In this document: piece by piece, positions 51,319-64,000 of the stretch
Position numbering within the stretch: position 1 is the first letter of the stretch
Layout: each line of letters begins with the position of its first letter
Source: Bacteroidota bacterium
GTDB taxonomy: Bacteria > Bacteroidota > Ignavibacteria > UBA10030 > UBA8401
Direction of reading: 5' to 3'
DNA: 64,000 nucleotides
NCBI GenBank assembly: GCA_030679145.1
Contig: JAUXTU010000116.1
Location: forward strand, 1-64,000
Notes under the pieces: generated by a model
What the model was told of the DNA's origin: nothing
Database searches by the model: none
What the model saw: the letters and a program-made list of their open reading frames with translations, nothing else
Position numbers and translations under genes: made by a program

Positions 51319-52968
51319 TTATTTTGTTTGTATCGCGGAAATTTGATCCACAATATTGTGGGTTGTAATGTCTTGGGAATTCCAAATTGCAATCGGTGTC
51401 AAGGCAAATTTCTTGATAATCTCATTAATGTGAGAATTGCGGATAACGATAATGATTGTGCCTGAATAGTTTTGAAGGATATCGTCCAAAGGATCAGCCC
51501 AGCCGCTTCCGCTAAGTTCGAGCGGACCGATTTCATCCATGATTGCTACATCACATTTACCGATTGTTGAAATCGACAAAGCATTTCTGCCAAATTGGAT
51601 CGCTTCAGGAAAAAACTTAAATGGTCCAGTAGAAATTCCCGTATCAGGAGCATCAATGCGGCAAAGTGGAATGATGGATCCGGATTCGATACTGAGTAGA
51701 TCATATCCATATCGCACATTATTCTTCCACAACCCTATCTGTAAAATACCGCAGGTCGCGATCTTTTTCATCTTTAACTCAGGAAGAAGATCTTGAAGAA
51801 TCGTTGTTTTCCCGCTTCCTTTTTCTCCACTCAAAACAAAAACTTTTGATGTTGGTATTTGAATCTCATTTGTGCGAGCGAGGATTCTTGACAACGAATC
51901 TACCGGATGTCTAAAAAAAGTTTTTTCTTGTTGTAAGGAGTCAATAATGGATGGTAAAGCGCCGAACGCAAGGTCTAATGCCAGTGAAAAGTTCTTCATC
52001 CGTTGTTTGAACAAAAAATTTACGACCACCGGATTTCGCAGCTCAACGCTAACAGCAGTAAATATAGAAATGACAAAGATTGCACGAAAGAACATCTGCA
52101 GTCCAATGATAATACCTGATGTTCGATCGACGAGTGTTAATTCTCCAAGAACGAATCCGGCAAAAATTGATACGATTCCTATCTCACCCCAAAACATCCA
52201 TCGTTGGAATTTTTGTCGTACCTTTTGATATCGATAAAAACAAAAAGGGATATAGAGTAAAAGATAGAATGATTGAACAATAAGTCCGCCTACGAGAACG
52301 AAAAAATGCGTGGCTAACAATAGTGCAGAAAAATGAAATCCGGCAACTTCACGTTTGTTAAATTGGTGGGAGAGTTTCGAGATGTTGTTTGGTCTCGTTT
52401 CTGCGTATATCGCAGCCCTTATGCCAACCCTCATGCCGGTAATTGCGGCAATACTTCCTCCAAAAAGATTTATCACAATGATACCAACAATGACATCGAC
52501 CGAGCTCAAAGTCGAGATCTGTAAACTTTTCGATGCAAACTCTACTAATTTTTCAAATAGCACAGCGATGTTCATACCGTAAGTAAAAAGATACGATATC
52601 GTTTTCTGAATGAGCGGTGTTGTGCAGGCAACAGCACCTCCAACGATGTAACCAAAAGCGTTACCGCCTAGCAATCTGATCGCTGTCTCAACAATGAATG
52701 CTTCAGCTGCTATTCCGATCATAGGACCAAGTATGACAGAACTCGGTGAAACTGATTTCATCACCGCGCAGATGAGACCGGCTCTCCATACAATACCTTT
52801 CTCTTTCCATAAAGAATGTCCTGCAATCAGTAAAGAGATCCCTACTGCTGAGAGGATGGTGCCTGTTAATGGAAATTTTAGATTATGCAGAAAACTACCA
52901 ACTACGATCTCGAGCGAAGCCCACACGCTTCCGAGTAGTGCAGCTTTCTGCCAGCGTTGATTTATCAT
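51319..52968 (-). CDS. Multispanning membrane protein fused to a THEP1-type NTPase domain
   Basis: 549 residues from the ATG at 52968 (the track start is a TTG five codons earlier). Residues 1-340 are integral membrane with about eight helices: the first 120 resemble an ECF-type substrate-binding (S) component, and about 290-345 (GIIIGLQMFFRAIFVISIFT...ALDLAFGALPSIIDSL) looks like the end of an EcfT/CbiQ-type T component. The C-terminal 175 residues are a P-loop NTPase: Walker A GEKGSGKTT near 378 and Walker B DEIGPLEL near 476, the NTPase_1/THEP1 signature. Divergently transcribed from the purine-type operon; function not established. Confidence 0.75.
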   Translation of the reverse strand: MINQRWQKAALLGSVWASLEIVVGSFLHNLKFPLTGTILSAVGISLLIAGHSLWKEKGIVWRAGLICAVMKSVSPSSVILGPMIGIAAEAFIVETAIRLLGGNAFGYIVGGAVACTTPLIQKTISYLFTYGMNIAVLFEKLVEFASKSLQISTLSSVDVIVGIIVINLFGGSIAAITGMRVGIRAAIYAETRPNNISKLSHQFNKREVAGFHFSALLLATHFFVLVGGLIVQSFYLLLYIPFCFYRYQKVRQKFQRWMFWGEIGIVSIFAGFVLGELTLVDRTSGIIIGLQMFFRAIFVISIFTAVSVELRNPVVVNFLFKQRMKNFSLALDLAFGALPSIIDSLQQEKTFFRHPVDSLSRILARTNEIQIPTSKVFVLSGEKGSGKTTILQDLLPELKMKKIATCGILQIGLWKNNVRYGYDLLSIESGSIIPLCRIDAPDTGISTGPFKFFPEAIQFGRNALSISTIGKCDVAIMDEIGPLELSGSGWADPLDDILQNYSGTIIIVIRNSHINEIIKKFALTPIAIWNSQDITTHNIVDQISAIQTK

Positions 52969-53029
52969 TGGTCTTTTGTTCAAAGGTATTTATAATTATG
53001 TTATTATTACATTTAGGTATCAATATAAA

Positions 53030-53114: not shown

Positions 53115-54395
53115 ATGAAAAAAGTGTCGCTGGAAAACGAAGATAATAAATTCACACCGCCTCGTTTTGTTACGGGACTACAATGCTTCATCTGCGGATC
53201 GAAGTACGACTATGACAATGTTCAGACCTGTCCGAAATGCGGCATTGAAGGAATCCTTGATGTTCTATACGATTACGATGAGATAAGACCAAATCTCAAA
53301 TCTCAAATCTCAAATCGCTCTTTTGATCACTGGCGCTACAAAGAATTGCTTCCTATATCGGATGACATTCAACTTCCGCATTTACACATCGGCTGGTCTC
53401 CGGTGTATGATGTTCCGCGCTTTGCATCGCATTTTGGAATAAAGAAAGTATTTATAAAAGATGACGGTCGAAACCCGACTAGTTCATTTAAAGATCGCGC
53501 GAGTTCCGTTGGAGTTTTGAAAGCCATAGAATTTGGTTTTGACACCATTGCATGTGCTTCAACAGGAAACGCCGCTTCATCACTCGCCGGACTTTCTGCC
53601 GCTGTTGGGTTGAAAAGTTATATTTTCGTTCCGCAGCGTGCGCCCGAACCGAAAGTAACGCAGCTTCTTGTGTTTGGCGCAACAGTTTTAAAAGTGCAGG
53701 GGACATATGAAAATGCTTTTGATCTTTGCCGCGAAGCGTGTGTAAAGTTTGGCTGGTACAATCGAAACAGCGGAACAAATCCATTTTTAGTTGAAGGGAA
53801 GAAAACTGCAGGGTTAGAAATTGCTGAACAATGTGCACATGATCTTCCGGATTGGGTAGTTGTTTCTGTCGGTGACGGATGCACGATCGGTGGAATTGGA
53901 AAAGGGTTACAGGAGATGAAACGTCTTGGATTCATTGACCGCGTTCCACGATTATTAGGAGTGCAAGCAGAAGGTGCAAGGGCAATGGTTAATGCATTTA
54001 TTTCCGGGAAGGATCTTGTTCCTACGGATACAAACACAATTGCAGACAGTATTGCTGTCGGCACTCCGCGCAATTGGCGCAGGGCAATTCAGCAGATCAA
54101 ACAATCACACGGTGAAATGATCACTGTTTCCGATGAAGAAATTCTTGAAGCAATGAAAACCACGGCGCGTCTTAGCGGTGTTTTTGGCGAACCCGCCGGT
54201 GTTACTGCTTCTGCTGGATTAAAAAGTGCGTTAGAAAAACAAATTATTAAACCAAACGAATCAGCACTTGTTATTGTTACAGGGAACGGATTAAAAGATA
54301 TTCAATCTGCAAAACAAGCTGTTGGAGATCCGATCAGTTTACCACCTACACTTGAAGCATTAACAGCGGCTCTTTCATTCCAGAATATTAAATAA
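53115..54395 (+). CDS. Threonine synthase-like PLP enzyme with N-terminal zinc-ribbon-like region
   Basis: 426 residues of fold type II PLP enzyme. N-terminal CFICG...CPKCG (about 25-45) is a two-CxxC module typical of one threonine synthase branch. The PLP lysine is in TSSFKDRASS and the phosphate-binding loop is CASTGNAASSLAG; TGNGLKD is near the end. The family converts O-phosphohomoserine to threonine, but its place as first gene of a purine/molybdenum hydroxylase operon suggests another amino acid substrate. Four copies of a seven-base repeat (53290-53317) lie in the linker after the CxxC module. It is followed by ssnA after four bases. Confidence 0.82.
   Translation: MKKVSLENEDNKFTPPRFVTGLQCFICGSKYDYDNVQTCPKCGIEGILDVLYDYDEIRPNLKSQISNRSFDHWRYKELLPISDDIQLPHLHIGWSPVYDVPRFASHFGIKKVFIKDDGRNPTSSFKDRASSVGVLKAIEFGFDTIACASTGNAASSLAGLSAAVGLKSYIFVPQRAPEPKVTQLLVFGATVLKVQGTYENAFDLCREACVKFGWYNRNSGTNPFLVEGKKTAGLEIAEQCAHDLPDWVVVSVGDGCTIGGIGKGLQEMKRLGFIDRVPRLLGVQAEGARAMVNAFISGKDLVPTDTNTIADSIAVGTPRNWRRAIQQIKQSHGEMITVSDEEILEAMKTTARLSGVFGEPAGVTASAGLKSALEKQIIKPNESALVIVTGNGLKDIQSAKQAVGDPISLPPTLEALTAALSFQNIK
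53290..53317 (+). repeat. Heptanucleotide repeat inside the threonine synthase-like gene
   Basis: CAAATCT repeated three times exactly and a fourth time as CAAATCG. Seven is not a multiple of three, so gain or loss of one unit would shift the frame just after the zinc-ribbon-like region (coding NLKSQISN). Confidence 0.75.
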
Positions 54396-54399
54396 TTTT

Positions 54400-55704
54400 T
54401 TGAAAACACTCCTAAAAAATAGCGTTGCTATTACTCTCTTTCCAAGTTCGATAGAAACTGTTGACTTGCGAATCAGTAATAGTCTTATTGTCGAGCGGGG
54501 AAAAAATCTTTTGCCACAAGCGGGAGAAAAAATTTTTGATCTCAAGGGAAAAATTGTTTTACCCGGAATGGTGAATGCTCATACGCATTTGTATTCTACT
54601 CTTTCCCGCGGAATGCCAATGCCGAAAACACCACCGAGAAATTTTATTGAGATATTGAAAAAGATCTGGTGGAAATTGGATCGTGCGCTTGATGAAGAAA
54701 CGATCTATTATAGTGCACTGGTCGGAGCAATTGAAGCTGTTCAAAATGGCACAACAACAATCATCGATCATCATGCATCGCCGAATGCAATCAACGGTTC
54801 GCTTGAAATTATTAAAGAAGCAATGGCAAAGATTGGACTTCGCGGCGTATTATGCTATGAAGTGACAGATCGCGGTGGAAAGAAACAACGTGACGAGGGA
54901 ATTGCTGAGAACGAAAATTTTATCCTCAAAAACTATAATAATTCATTTTTTCGCGGGCTTGTTGGCGCGCATGCATCTTTCACATTAAGTGAAGAATCGC
55001 TTTCACTGTGCGGTGAATTAGCTTCCGCATATAATACCGGCGTTCATATTCATGTTGCGGAAGATTTGTGCGATGTTGTTGATGCTGAAAGAAAATATCA
55101 CTGCGGCATTGTTGATCGTCTTTCTCGCAATAATATTCTTACAAACAAATCAATTCTTGGACACTGTATCCATCTTTCACAAAAAGATTATTCTCGACTC
55201 AATAAAACTCAAACGTGGTTTGCGCACAATCCGCGTTCGAATATGAATAATAAGGTTGGGTATTCCCCAATCCATCAATTCAAAAATCGGGGAATGATCG
55301 GGACGGATGGTTTTCCTTCGGACATGATCGAAGAAGCAAAGATCGCATTTTTCAAACGCCAAGATTCTCAACAAAAACAAAAAATTGATTTTTCCCGTAT
55401 CATTTCCGGTGGACAGCAATACGTTTCAGATATGTTCGGTTCGCAGTTTGGAACTCTGGCAAAAAATTCTGTTGCCGATCTAGTTGTATCGGATTATGTC
55501 GCCCCAACTCCAATGACGAAAGAAAATATCCTCGGACATTATTTATATGGAATGCGTTCGGCAAATATTGAATCTGTAATAGTAGGCGGGAAATGGGTAA
55601 TGAAAGATCGCAAAGTGTTGGGAATTGATGTTGAGCGAATCTATTCCGAAGCAGATAAGAAATCGAAAAAAATGTGGATCAAAATGATGGAGACGGTCCC
55701 ATGA
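54400..55704 (+). CDS. ssnA: SsnA-type amidohydrolase
   Basis: 434 residues, close to the E. coli SsnA length of about 440. It uses a TTG start five bases after the preceding stop; no better start lies before the conserved N-terminus. Amidohydrolase/cytosine deaminase-like metal site: NAHTHLYS (HxH near 60), HIHVAED, GHCIHLS and GTDGFPSDM. GTLAKNSVADLVV is the usual C-terminal beta sandwich motif. SsnA always accompanies YgfK, YgeW, YgeY and a molybdenum hydroxylase in clusters of this type and probably deaminates or opens a purine-derived ring; the exact reaction is unproven. Confidence 0.88.
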   Translation: MKTLLKNSVAITLFPSSIETVDLRISNSLIVERGKNLLPQAGEKIFDLKGKIVLPGMVNAHTHLYSTLSRGMPMPKTPPRNFIEILKKIWWKLDRALDEETIYYSALVGAIEAVQNGTTTIIDHHASPNAINGSLEIIKEAMAKIGLRGVLCYEVTDRGGKKQRDEGIAENENFILKNYNNSFFRGLVGAHASFTLSEESLSLCGELASAYNTGVHIHVAEDLCDVVDAERKYHCGIVDRLSRNNILTNKSILGHCIHLSQKDYSRLNKTQTWFAHNPRSNMNNKVGYSPIHQFKNRGMIGTDGFPSDMIEEAKIAFFKRQDSQQKQKIDFSRIISGGQQYVSDMFGSQFGTLAKNSVADLVVSDYVAPTPMTKENILGHYLYGMRSANIESVIVGGKWVMKDRKVLGIDVERIYSEADKKSKKMWIKMMETVP

Positions 55705-55769
55705 ACAATTATTTCAGCATAGCGAACCCATCGCTTTAAGTGATAGGTTCGCTTCTAAACTTAAAAAAA

Positions 55770-57770
55770 ATGGCAGAACTCGTACCAATATCATTCAACA
55801 CTCTTTTACGAAGAATGTATTACGAATACTCGAAGACACATGCGATCTTCGATCTGCCGTCGCGGAAATTCTACTCTCCATCTGCTGAAGAAAATCTTGC
55901 TGTTACTTCCTGCGGAAATCCAGCCGCAAATCCCGTCGGTCCAGCTGCCGGACCTCACACACAACTCGCACAAAATATCGCACTCTCGTGGCTTGCCGGT
56001 TCACGAATTATCGAATTAAAAACCGTTCAGATCAAAGACCAGCTTGAACTTTCACGTCCATGCATTGACATGGCGACGATCGGTTATAACACGGAATGGT
56101 CACAGGAACTGCGTCTTGAAGAATCTGCTAAAGAATACGTAAAAGCAAGTATGATCGTAGAAATTTTGAAACATTGGCTATTTCTTGATGTTCCAAATTC
56201 AAAATTCAAATCATCACAATTCAATACAATCTTTGATGTAAGTGTTGGATACGATCTTGCCGGAATTCAATCATCGCAAATCAGGTCGTGGTTGAAAACG
56301 ATGAAGGATGCATCTGTTCTTATTGAAGAATTGCGAAAAGAAATTCCGGAAGAGTTCAAACAGTTCCGCACTTTTCCATTTAATACAAAAATATCGGACA
56401 GCATTACGCTTTCAACATTTCACGGAACTCCTGCAGATGAAATTGAACGGATCAGTGAATTCCTGTTGAGTGAAATGGGATTTCATGTTGTTGTGAAAAT
56501 GAATCCGCCGATGCTCGGCAAATCGCGTCTTGATCATTTGCTGTATGAAAAACTTGGCTACACGAATATTGTTGTGAATCCGAAAGCGTACGAAGTCAAT
56601 ATTCTGTTTGATGATGCCGTTGCCATGGTGAAACGGCTGCAAAATATCGCTTTGAAAAATAAAAAAATGATCGGTGTGAAATTTGGCAACACGCTTGAAG
56701 TGGTAAACAGTGGAAAATTTCTGAAAGACAAGGTTCAATATCTTTCCGGTCAGCCGCTTCACATTCTTCATCTCTCACTTGTTGATGATTGGCGTAAAGT
56801 TTTCGGCGGAGATTTCCCGGTCTCTTTTTCCGCCGGCGTTGATGCAAATAATTTTGCTGATTGTGTTTCCATCGGACTTGTACCCGTTACAACATGCACC
56901 GATCTTCTTCGTCCTGGCGGCTATGGAAGATTGCCGCAGTATCTTTTGAATTTAGAAAGACGGATGAAAGATGTTGGCGCAACGACGATTAATGAGTTTA
57001 TTGTTAAAACGGGTTCAGGGTTCATGGTTCAGGATTCAAATGAACCAATAACCATGAACCGTGAAACTGCTATTTTGAAAAACACTCAATTGCTATTTGA
57101 TAAATCTATTTCAAATCCGCGCTATCATGCAGCAAATAATGCAAAGCCTCTAAGAAAAATCGGCAGCCATTTGCAATTATTCGACTGCATCAACTGTGAT
57201 AAATGTATTCCAGTCTGCCCGAACGATGCAAATTTCTATTTTGAAATTGAGCCGATGGAAATTGATTATGAAAATGTTGAACTATCAGCGCAAGGATGGA
57301 AGAAAATCGTTGGCGGACATTTATTAATTAAAGAAAAACATCAGATCGGTAATTACGCCGATGCGTGCAATGATTGTGGCAATTGCGACATCTTCTGTCC
57401 TGAAGATGGCGGACCATATATTGAAAAGCCGAGGTTTTTTGGTTCGATAGAATCTTACAAAAAATGGAGTACTTTAAGCGGATTTGTTTTGCAATCCGAT
57501 AAAAACAACGTTATTCTCTTCGGACGATTTAAAGATCAAGAATATGAATTACATCGTGATCAACAAAGCAATATGACAGTTTTCAAAAGCAATTCGGCGC
57601 AGGTGATAATACATTCAGAAACCAACGACATAATTGATGCAACAGGAGCAGTTTCTTCGGTTATAGATATGCGATATTATTTCGTGATGTCCACATTGTT
57701 GAACGGAATCATGAATACACAAAAAGTCCATTTTGTAAATACAGAATTAATAAAAAATAACGCTCGTTAA
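55770..57770 (+). CDS. ygfK: YgfK-type Fe-S oxidoreductase, short form lacking the FAD/NAD(P) module
   Basis: 666 residues from the ATG at 55770; the GTG at 55740 is less likely because E. coli YgfK aligns from (M)..LVPISFNTLL. The N-terminal dihydroorotate dehydrogenase-like barrel is shown by NPVGPAAGPHTQLAQNIA. Two 4Fe-4S motifs follow: CINCDKCIPVCPND near 471 and CNDCGNCDIFCPED near 531. E. coli YgfK is about 1030 residues and has a glutamate synthase-like FAD/NAD(P)H domain between these parts; no GxGxxG segment is seen here. It probably carries electrons for the molybdenum hydroxylase encoded next. Confidence 0.87.
   Translation: MAELVPISFNTLLRRMYYEYSKTHAIFDLPSRKFYSPSAEENLAVTSCGNPAANPVGPAAGPHTQLAQNIALSWLAGSRIIELKTVQIKDQLELSRPCIDMATIGYNTEWSQELRLEESAKEYVKASMIVEILKHWLFLDVPNSKFKSSQFNTIFDVSVGYDLAGIQSSQIRSWLKTMKDASVLIEELRKEIPEEFKQFRTFPFNTKISDSITLSTFHGTPADEIERISEFLLSEMGFHVVVKMNPPMLGKSRLDHLLYEKLGYTNIVVNPKAYEVNILFDDAVAMVKRLQNIALKNKKMIGVKFGNTLEVVNSGKFLKDKVQYLSGQPLHILHLSLVDDWRKVFGGDFPVSFSAGVDANNFADCVSIGLVPVTTCTDLLRPGGYGRLPQYLLNLERRMKDVGATTINEFIVKTGSGFMVQDSNEPITMNRETAILKNTQLLFDKSISNPRYHAANNAKPLRKIGSHLQLFDCINCDKCIPVCPNDANFYFEIEPMEIDYENVELSAQGWKKIVGGHLLIKEKHQIGNYADACNDCGNCDIFCPEDGGPYIEKPRFFGSIESYKKWSTLSGFVLQSDKNNVILFGRFKDQEYELHRDQQSNMTVFKSNSAQVIIHSETNDIIDATGAVSSVIDMRYYFVMSTLLNGIMNTQKVHFVNTELIKNNAR
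57019..57060 (+). repeat. Perfect 11-base inverted repeat inside ygfK
   Basis: GGTTCATGGTT and AACCATGAACC, 20 bases apart, in the codons for FMVQDSNEPITMN between the barrel and Fe-S parts of YgfK. The stem would be strong in mRNA. It looks like a piece of intergenic repeat accommodated in frame. Confidence 0.6.
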
Positions 57771-57793: not shown

Positions 57794-60376
57794 ATGAATA
57801 CTATCCAATTTACATTGAATGGAAAGGAATTCGAAGCAGCAATCGATGAGAATATCTCATTGATGGATGTTCTGCGCGAACAAGCTGGGTTGATCTCGCC
57901 AAAGAATGGATGCGCACCTCAGGGTTCGTGCGGTTGCTGCGTCGTTATTGTAGATGGCAAAGCAGTTTCATCGTGCGCAGTTCCGGCAAAGAATGTTCAG
58001 GGGAAGAATGTTATTACTCTTGAAGGATTAGATGAAAACGAACGCAATATTTTTGCAAAAGCATTTGTACTTGCTGCCGGCACACAATGCGGATTTTGCA
58101 CTCCGGGAATTGTAATGCGTGCAAAAAGTCTTATTCAAAAGAATCCGAATCCAAGCAGAGAAGAAATAGCTCTTTCATTGAACAATCACATTTGCCGCTG
58201 TACCGGTTACGTAAAGATTGTTGATGCGATCGATCTTGCGGCAAAAGCATTTAATGGCGTGCCGCTTCCGAAACCGGACTATTCAGGAAAAATCGGTTCG
58301 AGTCTTCCAAAAATGGATGGCGAAAAATTTGCGATGGGTGAACGTCCGTATATTGATGATATTACAATGCCTGAGATGTTGTATTCAGCATTTCTTTTTT
58401 CCCCACATCCAAGAATTAAAATTAAAAAGATCGATACTACAGAAGCAGAAAAAATTCCTGGTGTCGCACGTGTTGTAAAGGCAGGCGATGTTCCGGGTGC
58501 ACGAAAGCAGGGTCTTATCTATAAAGATTGGCCGCTGCTACATGCAGAAGGAGAGATAACTCATTGCATCGGAGATATTCTTGCAATGGTCGTTGCAAAA
58601 GATAATCGTACGGCTCGCAAAGCCGTAGAGAAAATTAAATTGGAATATGATATCCTTTCTGGTGTATTTGATCCAGAAGAAGCATTGAAACCAAATTCGC
58701 CGCAGGTGCATGCAGATCACGTAAATCTCTTGTCTAATTCAATCATTAAACGCGGTGATGTTGATACGGCATTGGCAGAATCTGCATTTGTTGAAACACG
58801 AACTTTTGAAACACAGATGATTGAGCATGCGTTTCTTGAACCAGAAAGTGCAATAGCATTCCCGAAGGATGGAGTTATTGAAGTGCTGAGTCAGGGTCAA
58901 GGTGTGTTTGATGATCGAAAACAGATTGCATCATTTCTGAATTTGCCGGAAGAAAAAGTGAAAGTAACTCTTATTACCAATGGTGGAGCTTTTGGCGGAA
59001 AAGAAGATCTCAGTATCCAAGCACACGTTGCACTTGCATCAATGCTGATAGGCAAACCCGTGAAAGCAACATTAACGCGTGAAGAAAGTATTCGCCTTCA
59101 TCCGAAACGTCATCCGATAAAAATGACATACACTGTTGGATGTGATGCGAATGGAAAACTGACGGGGGTTCGTGCGCGAATGATCGGAGATAAAGGGGCA
59201 TACGCTTCTGTTGGCACAAAAGTATTGGAACGAGCCGCGGGACATGCGTGTGGTCCCTACAATATTTTAAATTCAGATGTTGAAGCAAAAGCTGTGTATA
59301 CAAACAATCTTCCCTGTGGAGCGATGCGCGGTTTCGGTGCAAACCAAGCGTCGTTTGCAATAGAAGGAATGATGGACATTCTTGCGGAAAAAGTTGGAAT
59401 CGACGGATGGGAAATTCGATGGAGAAATGTTGTGGATGTCGGTGATACATTTTGTACCGGACAAGTTTTTGAACGAGCGGTCGGAATCAAAAAAACATTG
59501 CTGGCAGTAAAAGATATTTATTATTCATCGAAATATGTCGGCATTGGGTGTGGAATAAAAAATGTCGGTATTGGAAACGGTATGCCGGAATACGGACAAG
59601 CGATCGTATCAATTCATCCGGACGAAACAATCACGATCAACACCGGCTTTACAGATATGGGACAAGGGTTTTGTACGGTGATGATCCAATTCTTCAGCGA
59701 TGTTACGGGAATAGATCCGAGAACAATTCGTGTAGATATTGATACGACACAGCCAACACCTTGCGGAATGACAACAGCATCAAGAGCAACAGTGCTTGGG
59801 GGCCGCGCCGTGATCAAAGCAGCACAGGAAATGAAAAAAGATCTTGATGCAGGGAAGAAAATATCTGATTTGGCCGGCAAAAAATATTTTGGCGAAGTTG
59901 TTATTGATTACACAACGGCTCTTGAAGCAAAGACAAATAAACCGATCACGCATATGACGTTTGGTTTTGCAACGCAAGTATGTATTCTTGATGAGACAGG
60001 GAAAGTGAAAAAAATCGTTGCTGCTCACGATGTAGGAAGGATCATTAATAGAAAACTTCTTGAAGGTCAAATGGAAGGTTCTATTCACATGGGTCTTGGA
60101 TATGCGTTGACAGAAGAATTGAAATTGAAAGAAGGCGTTCCTGAATCATTTAAATTCCGTTCACTTGGAATATTACGGGCGAAGGATATGCCCGAAACGG
60201 AAGTTATTTTTATTGAAGAACATGAATCCGAAGGACCGTTTGGCGCAAAAGGTGTTGGCGAAATAGGACTTGTGCCGACAGCCGGAGCAGTAGCAGGTGC
60301 ATTATATAAATATGACGGTATTCGCCGTTTCAAACTGCCGATGAAAGATTCGCCCGCAGCAAAACAGATTTTATAA
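57794..60376 (+). CDS. xdh: Fused 2Fe-2S/molybdenum-binding xanthine dehydrogenase (selenium-dependent type)
   Basis: 860 residues, the size of the Se-dependent XDH/XdhD fused type. Residues 1-160 carry both 2Fe-2S clusters: C40, C46, C49, C61 (NGCAPQGSCGCC) and C99, C102, C134, C136 (CGFC...CRC). The molybdopterin domains follow, with GGAFGGKED near 397, MRGFGANQ and GVGEIGLVP (catalytic Glu near 821); PCGMTTASRAT also occurs in the Se-linked group. No FAD subunit gene is adjacent. Likely hydroxylates a purine such as hypoxanthine or xanthine, or reduces urate, with selenium as a labile ligand; selD is not in the window. Confidence 0.9.
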   Translation: MNTIQFTLNGKEFEAAIDENISLMDVLREQAGLISPKNGCAPQGSCGCCVVIVDGKAVSSCAVPAKNVQGKNVITLEGLDENERNIFAKAFVLAAGTQCGFCTPGIVMRAKSLIQKNPNPSREEIALSLNNHICRCTGYVKIVDAIDLAAKAFNGVPLPKPDYSGKIGSSLPKMDGEKFAMGERPYIDDITMPEMLYSAFLFSPHPRIKIKKIDTTEAEKIPGVARVVKAGDVPGARKQGLIYKDWPLLHAEGEITHCIGDILAMVVAKDNRTARKAVEKIKLEYDILSGVFDPEEALKPNSPQVHADHVNLLSNSIIKRGDVDTALAESAFVETRTFETQMIEHAFLEPESAIAFPKDGVIEVLSQGQGVFDDRKQIASFLNLPEEKVKVTLITNGGAFGGKEDLSIQAHVALASMLIGKPVKATLTREESIRLHPKRHPIKMTYTVGCDANGKLTGVRARMIGDKGAYASVGTKVLERAAGHACGPYNILNSDVEAKAVYTNNLPCGAMRGFGANQASFAIEGMMDILAEKVGIDGWEIRWRNVVDVGDTFCTGQVFERAVGIKKTLLAVKDIYYSSKYVGIGCGIKNVGIGNGMPEYGQAIVSIHPDETITINTGFTDMGQGFCTVMIQFFSDVTGIDPRTIRVDIDTTQPTPCGMTTASRATVLGGRAVIKAAQEMKKDLDAGKKISDLAGKKYFGEVVIDYTTALEAKTNKPITHMTFGFATQVCILDETGKVKKIVAAHDVGRIINRKLLEGQMEGSIHMGLGYALTEELKLKEGVPESFKFRSLGILRAKDMPETEVIFIEEHESEGPFGAKGVGEIGLVPTAGAVAGALYKYDGIRRFKLPMKDSPAAKQIL

Positions 60377-60410: not shown

Positions 60411-61598
60411 ATGCAACAAGTATTTCAACCACAGTTCAACACACTGAGCAGTTTAAAAACAAATATGTTTAACAAAGATTTTCTTCTGACATGGGATCGA
60501 TCAGATGATGAATTGAAAGCAGTTCTTACCGTAGCACAATTATTGAAAGATATGCACAAAGCGGGGAAGTCGATTCGTACATTTGATACTGGGCTTGCAA
60601 TTTCAATTTTTCGCGACAATTCTACGCGTACACGTTTCAGTTATGCATCGGCAGCGAACGCGCTCGGTCTTGGTCTTTCCGAACTTGATGAAGAAAAATC
60701 ACAGATAGCCCATGGTGAAACTGTTCGTGAAACAGCAAATATGATCTCGTTTCTTGCAGAAGTAATCGGAATTCGTGACGATATGTTTCTTGGTGAAGGT
60801 CATACATATATGCGTGAATTTGGCGCATCCATTCAAGAAGGATATGATAACGGAATCCTTCATCAACGACCAACCGTTGTGAACTTGCAATGCGATATCG
60901 ATCATCCGACGCAGGCTCTTGCTGATCTTATGCAATTGAAAAACACATTCGGTTCGGTTGAAAATCTCCGTGGTAAAAAAATTGCGATGACATGGGCATA
61001 TTCACCAAGTTACGGTAAGCCGCTTTCTGTTCCACAAGGAGTTATCGGATTGATGTCGCGTTATGGAATGGATGTTTCCCTTGCGTATCCGGAAGGATAT
61101 GGATTGATTCCTGAAGTGATTGAGCAAGCAAAGAAACAATCTGCACAAACCGGCGGAAAATTTGAGGTCGTCAATAATATGGAAGATGCATTTAAAAATG
61201 CAGACATTGTTTATCCAAAATCGTGGGCGCCGTTCAACGTTATGCAGCGCAGGACTGTTCTATTGAACAGCAATGACAAACCGGGATTGAAAGAACTTGA
61301 AAAAGAATGTCTTGCAAATAATGCGAAGTTTAAAAATTGGGAATGTGATGAGAAGAAAATGAAATTGACGAAGAAAGGCGAAGCGTTGTATATGCATTGC
61401 CTGCCCGCGGATATTTCCGGAGTAAGCTGCGCTGAAGGTGAAGTATCAAAAGATGTTTTTGATAAATACCGTCTTGCAACATATGCGGAAGCGGGTTACA
61501 AACCGTTTGTGATCGCTGCGTTGATGTTCTTAACACGAATGGAAAATCCAACTGAAAAAATGAAACAGATGTTGGAACAGAATACAAGCAGAAGATAA
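60411..61598 (+). CDS. ygeW: YgeW-type carbamoyltransferase
   Basis: 395 residues, the same as E. coli YgeW (396), to which it is clearly similar (FLLTW..SDDELK; DEEKSQIAHGETVRETANMIS; TWAYSPSYGKPLSVPQG; WAPFNVMQRR). Carbamoyl phosphate site STRTR near 71, HPTQ near 164, HCLP near 329. The family is thought to carry out a reversible carbamoyl transfer in purine breakdown (releasing carbamoyl phosphate from a ureido compound); the acceptor is not proven. AAAGG lies before the ATG. Confidence 0.93.
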   Translation: MQQVFQPQFNTLSSLKTNMFNKDFLLTWDRSDDELKAVLTVAQLLKDMHKAGKSIRTFDTGLAISIFRDNSTRTRFSYASAANALGLGLSELDEEKSQIAHGETVRETANMISFLAEVIGIRDDMFLGEGHTYMREFGASIQEGYDNGILHQRPTVVNLQCDIDHPTQALADLMQLKNTFGSVENLRGKKIAMTWAYSPSYGKPLSVPQGVIGLMSRYGMDVSLAYPEGYGLIPEVIEQAKKQSAQTGGKFEVVNNMEDAFKNADIVYPKSWAPFNVMQRRTVLLNSNDKPGLKELEKECLANNAKFKNWECDEKKMKLTKKGEALYMHCLPADISGVSCAEGEVSKDVFDKYRLATYAEAGYKPFVIAALMFLTRMENPTEKMKQMLEQNTSRR

Positions 61599-61602
61599 AA
61601 AT

Positions 61603-61658
61603 ATTACTACAAAGACGCAGAGATGTTAAATTTTATTCTTTGTGTCTTTGCGGTTAAT
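61603..61658. repeat. CAAAGACGCAGAG-type intergenic inverted repeat
   Basis: ATTACTACAAAGACGCAGAG pairs imperfectly with TTCTTTGTGTCTTTGCGGTTAA. It is the same type as the repeat at 30441 and lies between ygeW and the next PLP gene; it contains the false upstream GTG start of the latter. Confidence 0.55.
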
Positions 61659-61674
61659 TAAAAATGGAGTATTG

Positions 61675-63123
61675 ATGTCAAAAATAATTAAAAAAATAAA
61701 TCGTGAAGTAGTAAAAAAGACAGCGGCGCGATGCAAAGCGCAGGGTATTACTATTCCAACATTCGCCCAAATGCGCAATCCGAATTTGATTCCGGATTCA
61801 GTAAAACAAAAACTTCCTTCAATTGGATTATGGGATGTAAATCCGCTGAATTTATATCGGATCACTTGGAAAAATGATGTCAAAACCGGCGGATTTGGCG
61901 GAGTGAATTATTTCGAAATCCCTAAAGCAATCACTGGCGTTAATGCCCGAATCATCGGCATTGTCGGAAAATATTTTCCAACCGGCGCGCACAAAGTTGG
62001 TGCTGCGTTCGGATGTTTGGTTCCGCGTTTGGTGAGCGGAGAATTTGATCCCGAAAAACATAAAGCGATTTGGCCTTCAACCGGTAATTATTGCCGCGGT
62101 GGAGCGTTCGATTGCCGTTTATTGGATTGCACGCCAATAGCAATTCTTCCCGAAGGAATGTCGAAGGAACGTTTTGTTTGGCTGAAGGGAATTGGTGCAG
62201 AAGTAATTGCAACACCAGGAACAGAATCGAACGTGAAAGAAATTTACGACAAATGCTGGGAACTGAAAAAAGATCCGCTCAATATCATCTTCAATCAGTT
62301 TGAAGAATTTGGCAATCCAATCTGGCATTACAATGTCACCGGTCCGGCGCTGGAAGAAGCATTTCAAGCACTTGGAGTAAAAAATGGAAATGCAGCCGCA
62401 TATATTTCTGCTACCGGTTCTGCGGGAACAATTGGTGCGGGAGATTTCCTAAAAAAACTTCATCCGAATCTCAAGATCGTTGCAAGCGAGGCGCTGCAAT
62501 GCCCGACATTGTTGATGAACGGATTTGGCGAACATCGCATTGAAGGTATTGGCGATAAGCATATTCCGTGGGTTCATAATGTGCGGAATACTGACACAGT
62601 TTCCGCAATTGATGATGAGGATTGTATGCGCGTGCTTCGCTTGTTCAATGAAGTTGAAGGACAAAAATATTTGAAATCGCAGGGGGTGACCGACGTTGAA
62701 TTGGAAAATTTGAAGTTGATGGGAATTTCCAGTATTTCGAATATGCTTTCATCAATTAAAACGGCGAAATATTTTGAATATGGTGCGAATGATGTTGTGC
62801 TGACAATTTTTACGGACGGCGCTGATATGTATCACTCTCGTGTTGAAGAATTGCGAGATGAACGAGGTGCTTATACAACAATCGAAGCTGCAAAAGATCA
62901 TGCCGCTCCGTTGATGCATCAAAGTATCGATTACTATAGGGAACTTTCATACTACGATAAAAAAGCAATTCACAATCTGAAATATTTTACGTGGGTTGAA
63001 CAGCAAGGAAAATCATCCGATGAATTGCGCGAACAATGGAATCCGGAATACTGGCGTTCACTGTTTGAAGATGAAGTTGCACAGTTTGATAAATTGATTA
63101 CAGAGTTTAATGCAATGATGTAG
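61675..63123 (+). CDS. PLP-dependent enzyme of the cysteine synthase/threonine synthase superfamily
   Basis: 482 residues, start at 61675 because GGAG is just before it; the track start (GTG at 61642) lies in a repeat. Fold type II: PLP lysine in TGAHKVGAAFG near 105, phosphate loop in WPSTGNYCRGG, and TGSAGTIGAGDF. It is longer than the E. coli YgeX ammonia-lyase (about 400 residues) and not similar to its KDES-type motif. Such long PLP enzymes do occur beside YgeW and YgeY. Likely reaction: ammonia elimination from a diamino acid, or transfer of a beta substituent. Uncertain. Confidence 0.82.
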   Translation: MSKIIKKINREVVKKTAARCKAQGITIPTFAQMRNPNLIPDSVKQKLPSIGLWDVNPLNLYRITWKNDVKTGGFGGVNYFEIPKAITGVNARIIGIVGKYFPTGAHKVGAAFGCLVPRLVSGEFDPEKHKAIWPSTGNYCRGGAFDCRLLDCTPIAILPEGMSKERFVWLKGIGAEVIATPGTESNVKEIYDKCWELKKDPLNIIFNQFEEFGNPIWHYNVTGPALEEAFQALGVKNGNAAAYISATGSAGTIGAGDFLKKLHPNLKIVASEALQCPTLLMNGFGEHRIEGIGDKHIPWVHNVRNTDTVSAIDDEDCMRVLRLFNEVEGQKYLKSQGVTDVELENLKLMGISSISNMLSSIKTAKYFEYGANDVVLTIFTDGADMYHSRVEELRDERGAYTTIEAAKDHAAPLMHQSIDYYRELSYYDKKAIHNLKYFTWVEQQGKSSDELREQWNPEYWRSLFEDEVAQFDKLITEFNAMM

Positions 63124-63316: not shown

Positions 63317-64000
63317 ATGTTACAAAAAATCTATGCAGAAGCAAAAAAAAATGAACGTGCTGTTGCGGAATTTCTTCGTGAACTGATCGCAATTAAGTCG
63401 CTCAGTTCACAAGAAGGAAATGTTATTGCGCGTGTAAAGCAGGAAATGGAAAAATGCAAATTCGATGAAATTACGATTGACCCGATGGGAAACATTATTG
63501 GTCGTATCGGTCACGGAAAGCATGTAATTGCATTCGATGCTCATGTTGATACAGTTGATGTCGGCAATCCTGAAAATTGGAAAGTTGATCCGTTCAAAGG
63601 CGATGAAAAAGGTGGTATCATTTATGGACGAGGCGCATGCGATATGAAAGGGGCACTTGCATCGATCATTTATGGCGGAAAAATTATCAAAGACCTCGGC
63701 CTTGAAGGTGATTATACATTGTATGTTGTCGGAAGTGTTCAGGAAGAAGATTGCGATGGTTTGTGCTGGCAATATATTATCAAAGAAGATAAAATTCGCC
63801 CTGAAGTTGTTGTGATCACCGAACCGACAAATCTTGCAGTGTATCGCGGCCACCGCGGACGGATGGAAATTGAAGTTCGCACCAAAGGAATTTCGTGTCA
63901 CGGTTCTGCACCGGAGCGGGGCGTGAATGCAGTGTATAAAATGGCTCCAATCGTTCAAGATATTGAGAAATTAAATGAACGCCTTGGCGGTGAACCATTC
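63317..64000 (+). CDS. ygeY: YgeY-type M20 metallohydrolase, N-terminal part (cut by window end)
   Basis: 228 codons from the ATG at 63317 to the window edge without a stop; the ORF track shows only antisense ORFs because the gene is incomplete. M20 metallopeptidase: DAHVDTVD (His ligand and catalytic Asp) near 75, GACDMKGALAS (bridging Asp) near 112, QEEDCDG (catalytic Glu and metal Glu) near 144, TEPT near 174 and HGSAPERG near 197. The sequence matches the YgeY selenium metabolism-linked hydrolase group rather than ArgE or DapE. Probably deacylates or deformylates the amino acid product of the pathway. AAAAGG lies before the ATG. Confidence 0.9.
   Translation, partial: MLQKIYAEAKKNERAVAEFLRELIAIKSLSSQEGNVIARVKQEMEKCKFDEITIDPMGNIIGRIGHGKHVIAFDAHVDTVDVGNPENWKVDPFKGDEKGGIIYGRGACDMKGALASIIYGGKIIKDLGLEGDYTLYVVGSVQEEDCDGLCWQYIIKEDKIRPEVVVITEPTNLAVYRGHRGRMEIEVRTKGISCHGSAPERGVNAVYKMAPIVQDIEKLNERLGGEPF

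Follow-up and report, generated by a model that had tools for sequence, protein, structure and literature searches.

How does a YgfK protein that lacks its FAD/NAD(P) part obtain electrons? The question is raised by a ygfK gene of a member of the Ignavibacteria (Bacteroidota), found within a stretch of 64,000 nucleotides (contig JAUXTU010000116.1, positions 1 to 64,000; here referred to as the window). The reductive uric-acid pathway was solved in 2025. In E. coli, YgfK reduces yanthine (2,8-dioxopurine) with NAD(P)H, a step which breaks the aromaticity of the purine in anaerobic uric-acid breakdown (PMC12507026).

The open reading frame of the window gene begins with a GTG at 55740 and ends at 57770. 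An in-frame ATG at 55770 is the probable start and was preferred since the homologues in the alignment start with MAEL or MSEL. Counted from this ATG the protein comprises 666 aa, compared with 1032 aa in E. coli YgfK. The difference of 366 residues agrees with the roughly 365 given in an earlier note on this DNA. The protein is composed as follows:

55770..57770, plus strand: short ygfK, 666 aa, without the Fer4_20/FAD/NAD(P) module (BLASTP, Pfam, AlphaFold)
55770..56939, plus strand: N-terminal barrel of the YgfK type, predicted to bind FMN, residues 1 to ~390 (best Foldseek match the DPD/DHODH fold)
56940..57185, plus strand: variable, partly disordered linker at the site where full-length YgfK carries Fer4_20, FAD and NAD(P) domains
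57186..57221, plus strand: first [4Fe-4S] motif CINCDKCIPVCP, residues 473-484
57366..57401, plus strand: second [4Fe-4S] motif CNDCGNCDIFCP, residues 533-544
57465..57767, plus strand: C-terminal beta domain, residues ~566-666 (AlphaFold secondary structure; BLAST match to Ec 965-1000)

Two blocks were aligned with E. coli YgfK by BLASTP (query numbered from the GTG). Residues 14-406 matched Ec 5-406 with 37% identity (E=1e-79) and residues 486-610 matched Ec 905-1000 (E=4e-11), so that at least the start of the beta domain is common to both proteins. For Ec ~407-904, which comprise the Fer4_20, FAD and NAD(P) domains, BLASTP found no counterpart in the window protein. Pfam assigned PF14691 (Fer4_20) and PF07992 (Pyr_redox_2) to E. 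coli YgfK and to one full-length relative of the same phylum; neither family was assigned to the window protein or to any of six short relatives of other groups, for which Pfam reported Fer4 families only. A motif scan of the window protein found no GxGxxG/A. This motif is present at least once in each of 38 full-length relatives, and in E. coli YgfK it lies at Ec 557 and 685, within the part absent from the short form.

Both cluster motifs of the window protein are canonical CxxCxxCxxxCP, and all eight Fe-S cysteines, four in each motif, were invariant in the alignment of 58 short homologues. The invariant residues of the barrel were kept across the family as well. Between the GGY and the first cysteine motif the linker varied from 67 to 132 aa among the short forms. 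An AlphaFold model built with these 58 homologues as input (mean pLDDT 87.3, pTM 0.90; pLDDT below 50 at residues 463-484) predicts a barrel, the region of the clusters and, at the C-terminus, a beta domain, with no Rossmann module visible. Its best PDB matches were dihydropyrimidine dehydrogenase and dihydroorotate dehydrogenase, with E-values down to 2.6e-10 and low TM-scores of about 0.35 normalised to the query (Foldseek). The window gene is thus a shortened YgfK which has lost the part for electron input from NAD(P)H. The earlier note had read the protein in the same way, with barrel and both 4Fe-4S motifs present and without a nucleotide-binding part or its glycine motif, and named a predicted structure with a complete flavin/NAD-binding fold as what would refute it; alignment, Pfam, motif scan and model concur with its reading.

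The short form is not peculiar to one genome. GTDB species genomes were scanned with an alignment spanning the junction of the short form, yielding 189 relatives of which 80 loci were kept. None of these encoded a full-length YgfK, and complete ORFs were mostly 640-753 aa in size. They belonged to Ignavibacteria, KSB1, Acidobacteria, Planctomycetes, Marinimicrobia, Myxococcales, SAR324, Verrucomicrobia, Eisenbacteria, Krumholzibacteria, Gemmatimonadetes, BRC1 and alphaproteobacteria such as Rhodovulum and Rhodoplanes, in total more than 10 bacterial phyla. Since the identical junction recurred in at least 75 other loci, a frameshift or a truncation in the assembly was rejected, and the window protein is a member of a widespread short family. 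Within its own phylum, YgfK proteins were found in 25 of 396 genomes. Six of these were short, four of them in the order of the window genome, and 19 were full-length, counting two which end at contig ends yet contain the start of the module. Candidates from the genomes G362 and G082 were rejected as short forms, as their sequences stop at contig ends. Estimated from the open frames and from how the matches were spaced, there were about 21 short forms and 5 full forms among 392 genomes of Planctomycetota, about 19 and 23 among 396 of Acidobacteriota, and one of each among 399 of Pseudomonadota. A possible selenocysteine encoded by TGA in three homologues (G140, G152, G148) was dismissed, the TGA being located upstream of the start codon.

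In trees calculated from the shared parts only, the short forms occupied one side of a single branch (SH-aLRT 89-90). The label short or full required one change on the tree, compared with 17-25 changes when labels were shuffled. The nearest full-length kin were two Planctomycete proteins, joined to the short forms by a branch with a support of 100. The trees are unrooted and come from a quick search; since full forms flank both sides, a single loss of the module is the simplest reading, and the short form apparently had a single origin. Long open frames of the Planctomycetes G856 and G831 were rejected as short forms and are genuine full-length YgfKs. These proteins (L199 and L195) can serve as intermediates in tracing how the module was lost.

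The gene is part of a co-directional run which starts at 53115, crosses the end of the window and continues as far as contig position 72243. The order is PALP426, ssnA, ygfK, xdh (860 aa), ygeW, PALP493, ygeY, yqeA (carbamate kinase), an ATCase-like gene, mocA, xdhA (482 aa), xdhB (759 aa), a gene for a membrane protein and xdhC. The following members are needed here:

53115..54395, plus strand: PALP426, PLP-dependent threonine-synthase-like lyase, first gene of the run (PF00291, TIGR00260)
54400..55704, plus strand: ssnA, amidohydrolase (TIGR03314, 478.8 bits, cut-off 455.5)
57794..60376, plus strand: molybdenum hydroxylase XDH, 860 aa, 2Fe-2S and Mo domains, predicted urate reductase (TIGR03311, 978 bits)
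60411..61598, plus strand: ygeW, knotted carbamoyltransferase (TIGR03316, 639 bits)
61642..63123, plus strand: PALP493, PLP-dependent lyase, 493 aa (PF00291)
63317..64000, continuing to contig position 64516, plus strand: ygeY, M20 hydrolase (profile match)
67069..68517 of the contig (C71), outside the window, co-directional: xdhA, 482 aa, FAD_binding_5 and CO_deh_flav_C (Pfam)

This run is a cluster for reductive uric-acid degradation as in E. coli and C. difficile (PMC12507026). SsnA carries out the ring opening of dihydro-yanthine in E. coli. Among the 56 short-ygfK loci longer than 12 kb, ssnA was located within 10 kb in 33, xdh in 32, ygeW in 21 and ygeY in 19. In many loci ygfK and xdh were spaced within about 100 bp. 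A hydantoinase was near ygfK in only 2 of the 56; it is absent from the run of the window genome, which carries one elsewhere (C15) next to PreA.

Several features of the run deserve mention in their own right. Both PLP lyases (PALP426, 426 aa; PALP493, 493 aa) recur near the short ygfK, homologues being located within 10 kb in 17 and 27 of the 56 loci, respectively. They may take the place of YgeX, and PALP426 would be labelled a threonine synthase by automatic annotation. A second, aspartate carbamoyltransferase-like carbamoyltransferase follows the carbamate kinase (L009:5486-6409; contig C71 65485-66408), in addition to ygeW. The XDH at 57794-60376 is named 'selenium-dependent' by NCBIfam (TIGR03311, above cut-off). 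As no SelD match above cut-off was found in the genome, estimated to be 100% complete (best 32.8 bits, cut-off 125), a dependence on selenium looks unlikely. Directly upstream of the run, on the minus strand at 51319-52983, lies a gene for an unusual protein of 554 aa, whose N-terminal part looks like a membrane-spanning region and is fused to a C-terminal THEP1-type NTPase domain (PF03266).

Judged by the features of the family represented by E. coli YgfK (TIGR03315/IPR017701), the window protein has the N-terminal barrel, the C-terminal twin [4Fe-4S] domain and the neighbourhood of ssnA, xdh, ygeW and ygeY, but not the Fer4_20 and FAD/NAD(P) module. Its TIGR03315 score of 407.9 bits is below the equivalog cut-off of 835.3. 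The earlier note assumed that electrons leave this protein. The direction has to be reversed, since YgfK is known to reduce yanthine (PMC12507026); electrons must enter. The note was right that a carrier other than the missing domains is needed. Of the two routes it proposed, our analysis favours ferredoxin and speaks against a separate flavoprotein as a general rule.

Three known systems are informative in this respect. UacX of C. difficile is FAD-less, active with reduced methyl viologen and was proposed to use ferredoxin, and the XDH alongside also has no FAD subunit (PMC12507026). The short YgfK resembles it as a FAD-less reductase in a uricolytic cluster with such an XDH. UacX, however, is a PydA homologue (PF01180), whereas the short YgfK belongs to the YgfK line; PF01180 did not match the window protein at E<=0.01, nor was the protein among the PF01180 matches of the genome. 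PydAc of Clostridium chromiireducens, a ferredoxin-dependent dihydropyrimidine dehydrogenase, reduces uracil with reduced ferredoxin (PMC7332683). It shares with the short YgfK an FMN barrel fed by Fe-S clusters (predicted in the latter) and the absence of FAD/NAD(P) domains. It differs in having two ferredoxin domains, the second of which (Fdx1) is absent from the short YgfK with its only two 4Fe-4S motifs and eight ligand cysteines. PreA of PreAT likewise consists of a barrel and one C-terminal twin 4Fe-4S domain, but its partner PreT is encoded alongside, and across 85 short-ygfK loci no dedicated PreT partner was conserved beside the gene.

Taken together, we consider it probable that the short YgfK is an FMN/Fe-S yanthine reductase which receives electrons from outside at its C-terminal clusters, with ferredoxin as the most probable donor. 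FMN, the substrate and the donor are inferred here by homology. A low-potential diffusible carrier, likeliest ferredoxin, would be reduced by 2-oxoacid:ferredoxin oxidoreductases. The two C-terminal clusters would take up single electrons and pass them to FMN, from which the pyrimidine ring of the purine would be reduced, and the product would then be hydrolysed by the neighbouring SsnA. The adjoining FAD-less XDH probably draws on the same carrier for the conversion of urate to yanthine. Such oxidoreductases (POR/KOR) were encoded in all 18 short-form genomes tested; they are necessary for this reading but weak evidence for it, as they were common in controls (10/14). Against it stands that no ferredoxin gene is conserved in the cluster; outside YgfK, the motif was hit in only 5 of the 85 loci, always within long proteins. 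The loss of the second ferredoxin domain, which PydAc retains, speaks against it as well.

Alternatively, an unlinked flavoprotein of the PreT/GltD type might stand in for the missing module in trans, making the enzyme an NAD(P)H-dependent split YgfK comparable to PreA with PreT. The earlier note suggested a search for a stand-alone protein of this kind, and the window genome does encode a PreT at a contig edge as well as further strong or partial GltD-type matches. This PreT could serve YgfK there; its place appears to be in a pyrimidine operon, together with a PreA of its own and a dihydropyrimidinase. Within 10 kb, a GltD/PreT-type FAD module was convincing in only two of the 85 loci (83 distinct), with a weak partial match in a third. 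Both are Verrucomicrobia (L126:6093-8573 and L137:4290-6782), in which a DPD-like protein of 826-830 aa with the order Fer4_20-FAD-NAD-barrel-Fer4, and therefore with a barrel of its own, adjoins the short ygfK; in L126 its gene also adjoins an amidohydrolase-like gene. None of 12 whole short-form genomes searched carried a second, full-length YgfK, and two of them, G398 (Phycisphaerales) and G403 (Myxococcales), had no strong GltD/PreT-type match in their assembled part, outside of which a module may lie. We therefore regard supply in trans as unlikely.

Still less probable is that an XDH-type FAD subunit further down the run passes electrons from NADH to YgfK and the FAD-less XDH. The statement of the earlier note that no FAD subunit is located next to xdh holds for the window, where the adjoining XDH of 860 aa showed no FAD_binding_5 in Pfam; further along the same run, XdhA carries this domain. 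The note would have counted a separate FAD/NAD protein downstream in the operon against itself, and XdhA answers to this in part. It is, however, an XDH-type flavoprotein without Fer4_20 and Pyr_redox_2 and not the absent GltD-type module. As it adjoins its own Mo subunit (xdhB, 759 aa, TIGR02965-like) it looks like an ordinary XDH part, which counts against a role in feeding YgfK. XDH-type FAD modules were found within 10 kb in about 13 of the 85 loci and are absent near most short ygfK genes, and the same XdhA/XdhB pair also adjoins a full-length YgfK (L066).

A PduS-like NADH flavoprotein was rejected as a general donor, being present in two clusters only and without a close homologue in the window genome. 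In these two loci (L059:7527-9564 and L086:690-2595), from a genome of the order Ignavibacteriales (G256) and a Terriglobia MAG, the PduS/RnfC-like flavoprotein (Complex1_51K, SLBB, RnfC_N) is accompanied by a PduT-like double BMC shell protein, which hints at a link between microcompartments and the purine pathway. BMC genes were not found in the genus of the window genome.

A further point concerns residue 220 (56427-56429), where the window protein has Thr instead of the Cys of the HGCP motif present in most YgfKs. Thr was found in all 11 short forms of the Ignavibacteria clade that grouped with the window protein in the alignment. Activity and substrate could therefore differ in this clade, which also weighs against the ferredoxin-fed yanthine reductase. 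An equivalence of this Cys with Cys671 of DPD was not adopted, as profile alignment gave no clear support. Together with the close spacing of ygfK and xdh and the rarity of hydantoinase genes, the exchange would fit a changed role of the short YgfK, either with another substrate or in direct electron exchange with XDH. The cluster retains ssnA, ygeW and ygeY and the barrel invariants are kept family-wide, and we rate this as the least probable reading. Very unlikely, too, is that the short YgfK and the FAD-less XDH form a single redox unit linked by Fe-S clusters. Electrons released when the second XDH oxidises hypoxanthine or xanthine to urate would then reach purine reduction via ferredoxin or direct contact, in a pathway without NAD(P)H.

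With regard to the ferredoxin-fed enzyme, the best explanation in our analysis is that the short YgfK is the counterpart, within the YgfK line, of UacX and clostridial PydAc, reached independently; it probably works like these proteins, and it descends from YgfK. The donor of FAD-less XDH has been listed as an open question in a review (PMC12990295). Because the short YgfK and the adjoining XDH are both without a flavin domain, the hypothesis of a common donor is directly testable.

A previous survey defined yanthine reductase by IPR017701 (full YgfK), PF01180 (UacX) or PF00296 (F420 enzyme) and named six phyla (PMC12507026). The short YgfK would escape these definitions, since it scores 408 bits at a cut-off of 835 and has no PF01180 match, and our literature search, which covered open-licence papers, found no description of it. 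The short form adds a variant of yanthine reductase, probably with a different electron donor, and widens the range of the pathway to many environmental phyla, including Acidobacteriota, Planctomycetota, Myxococcota, Ignavibacteria and others, marine lineages among them.
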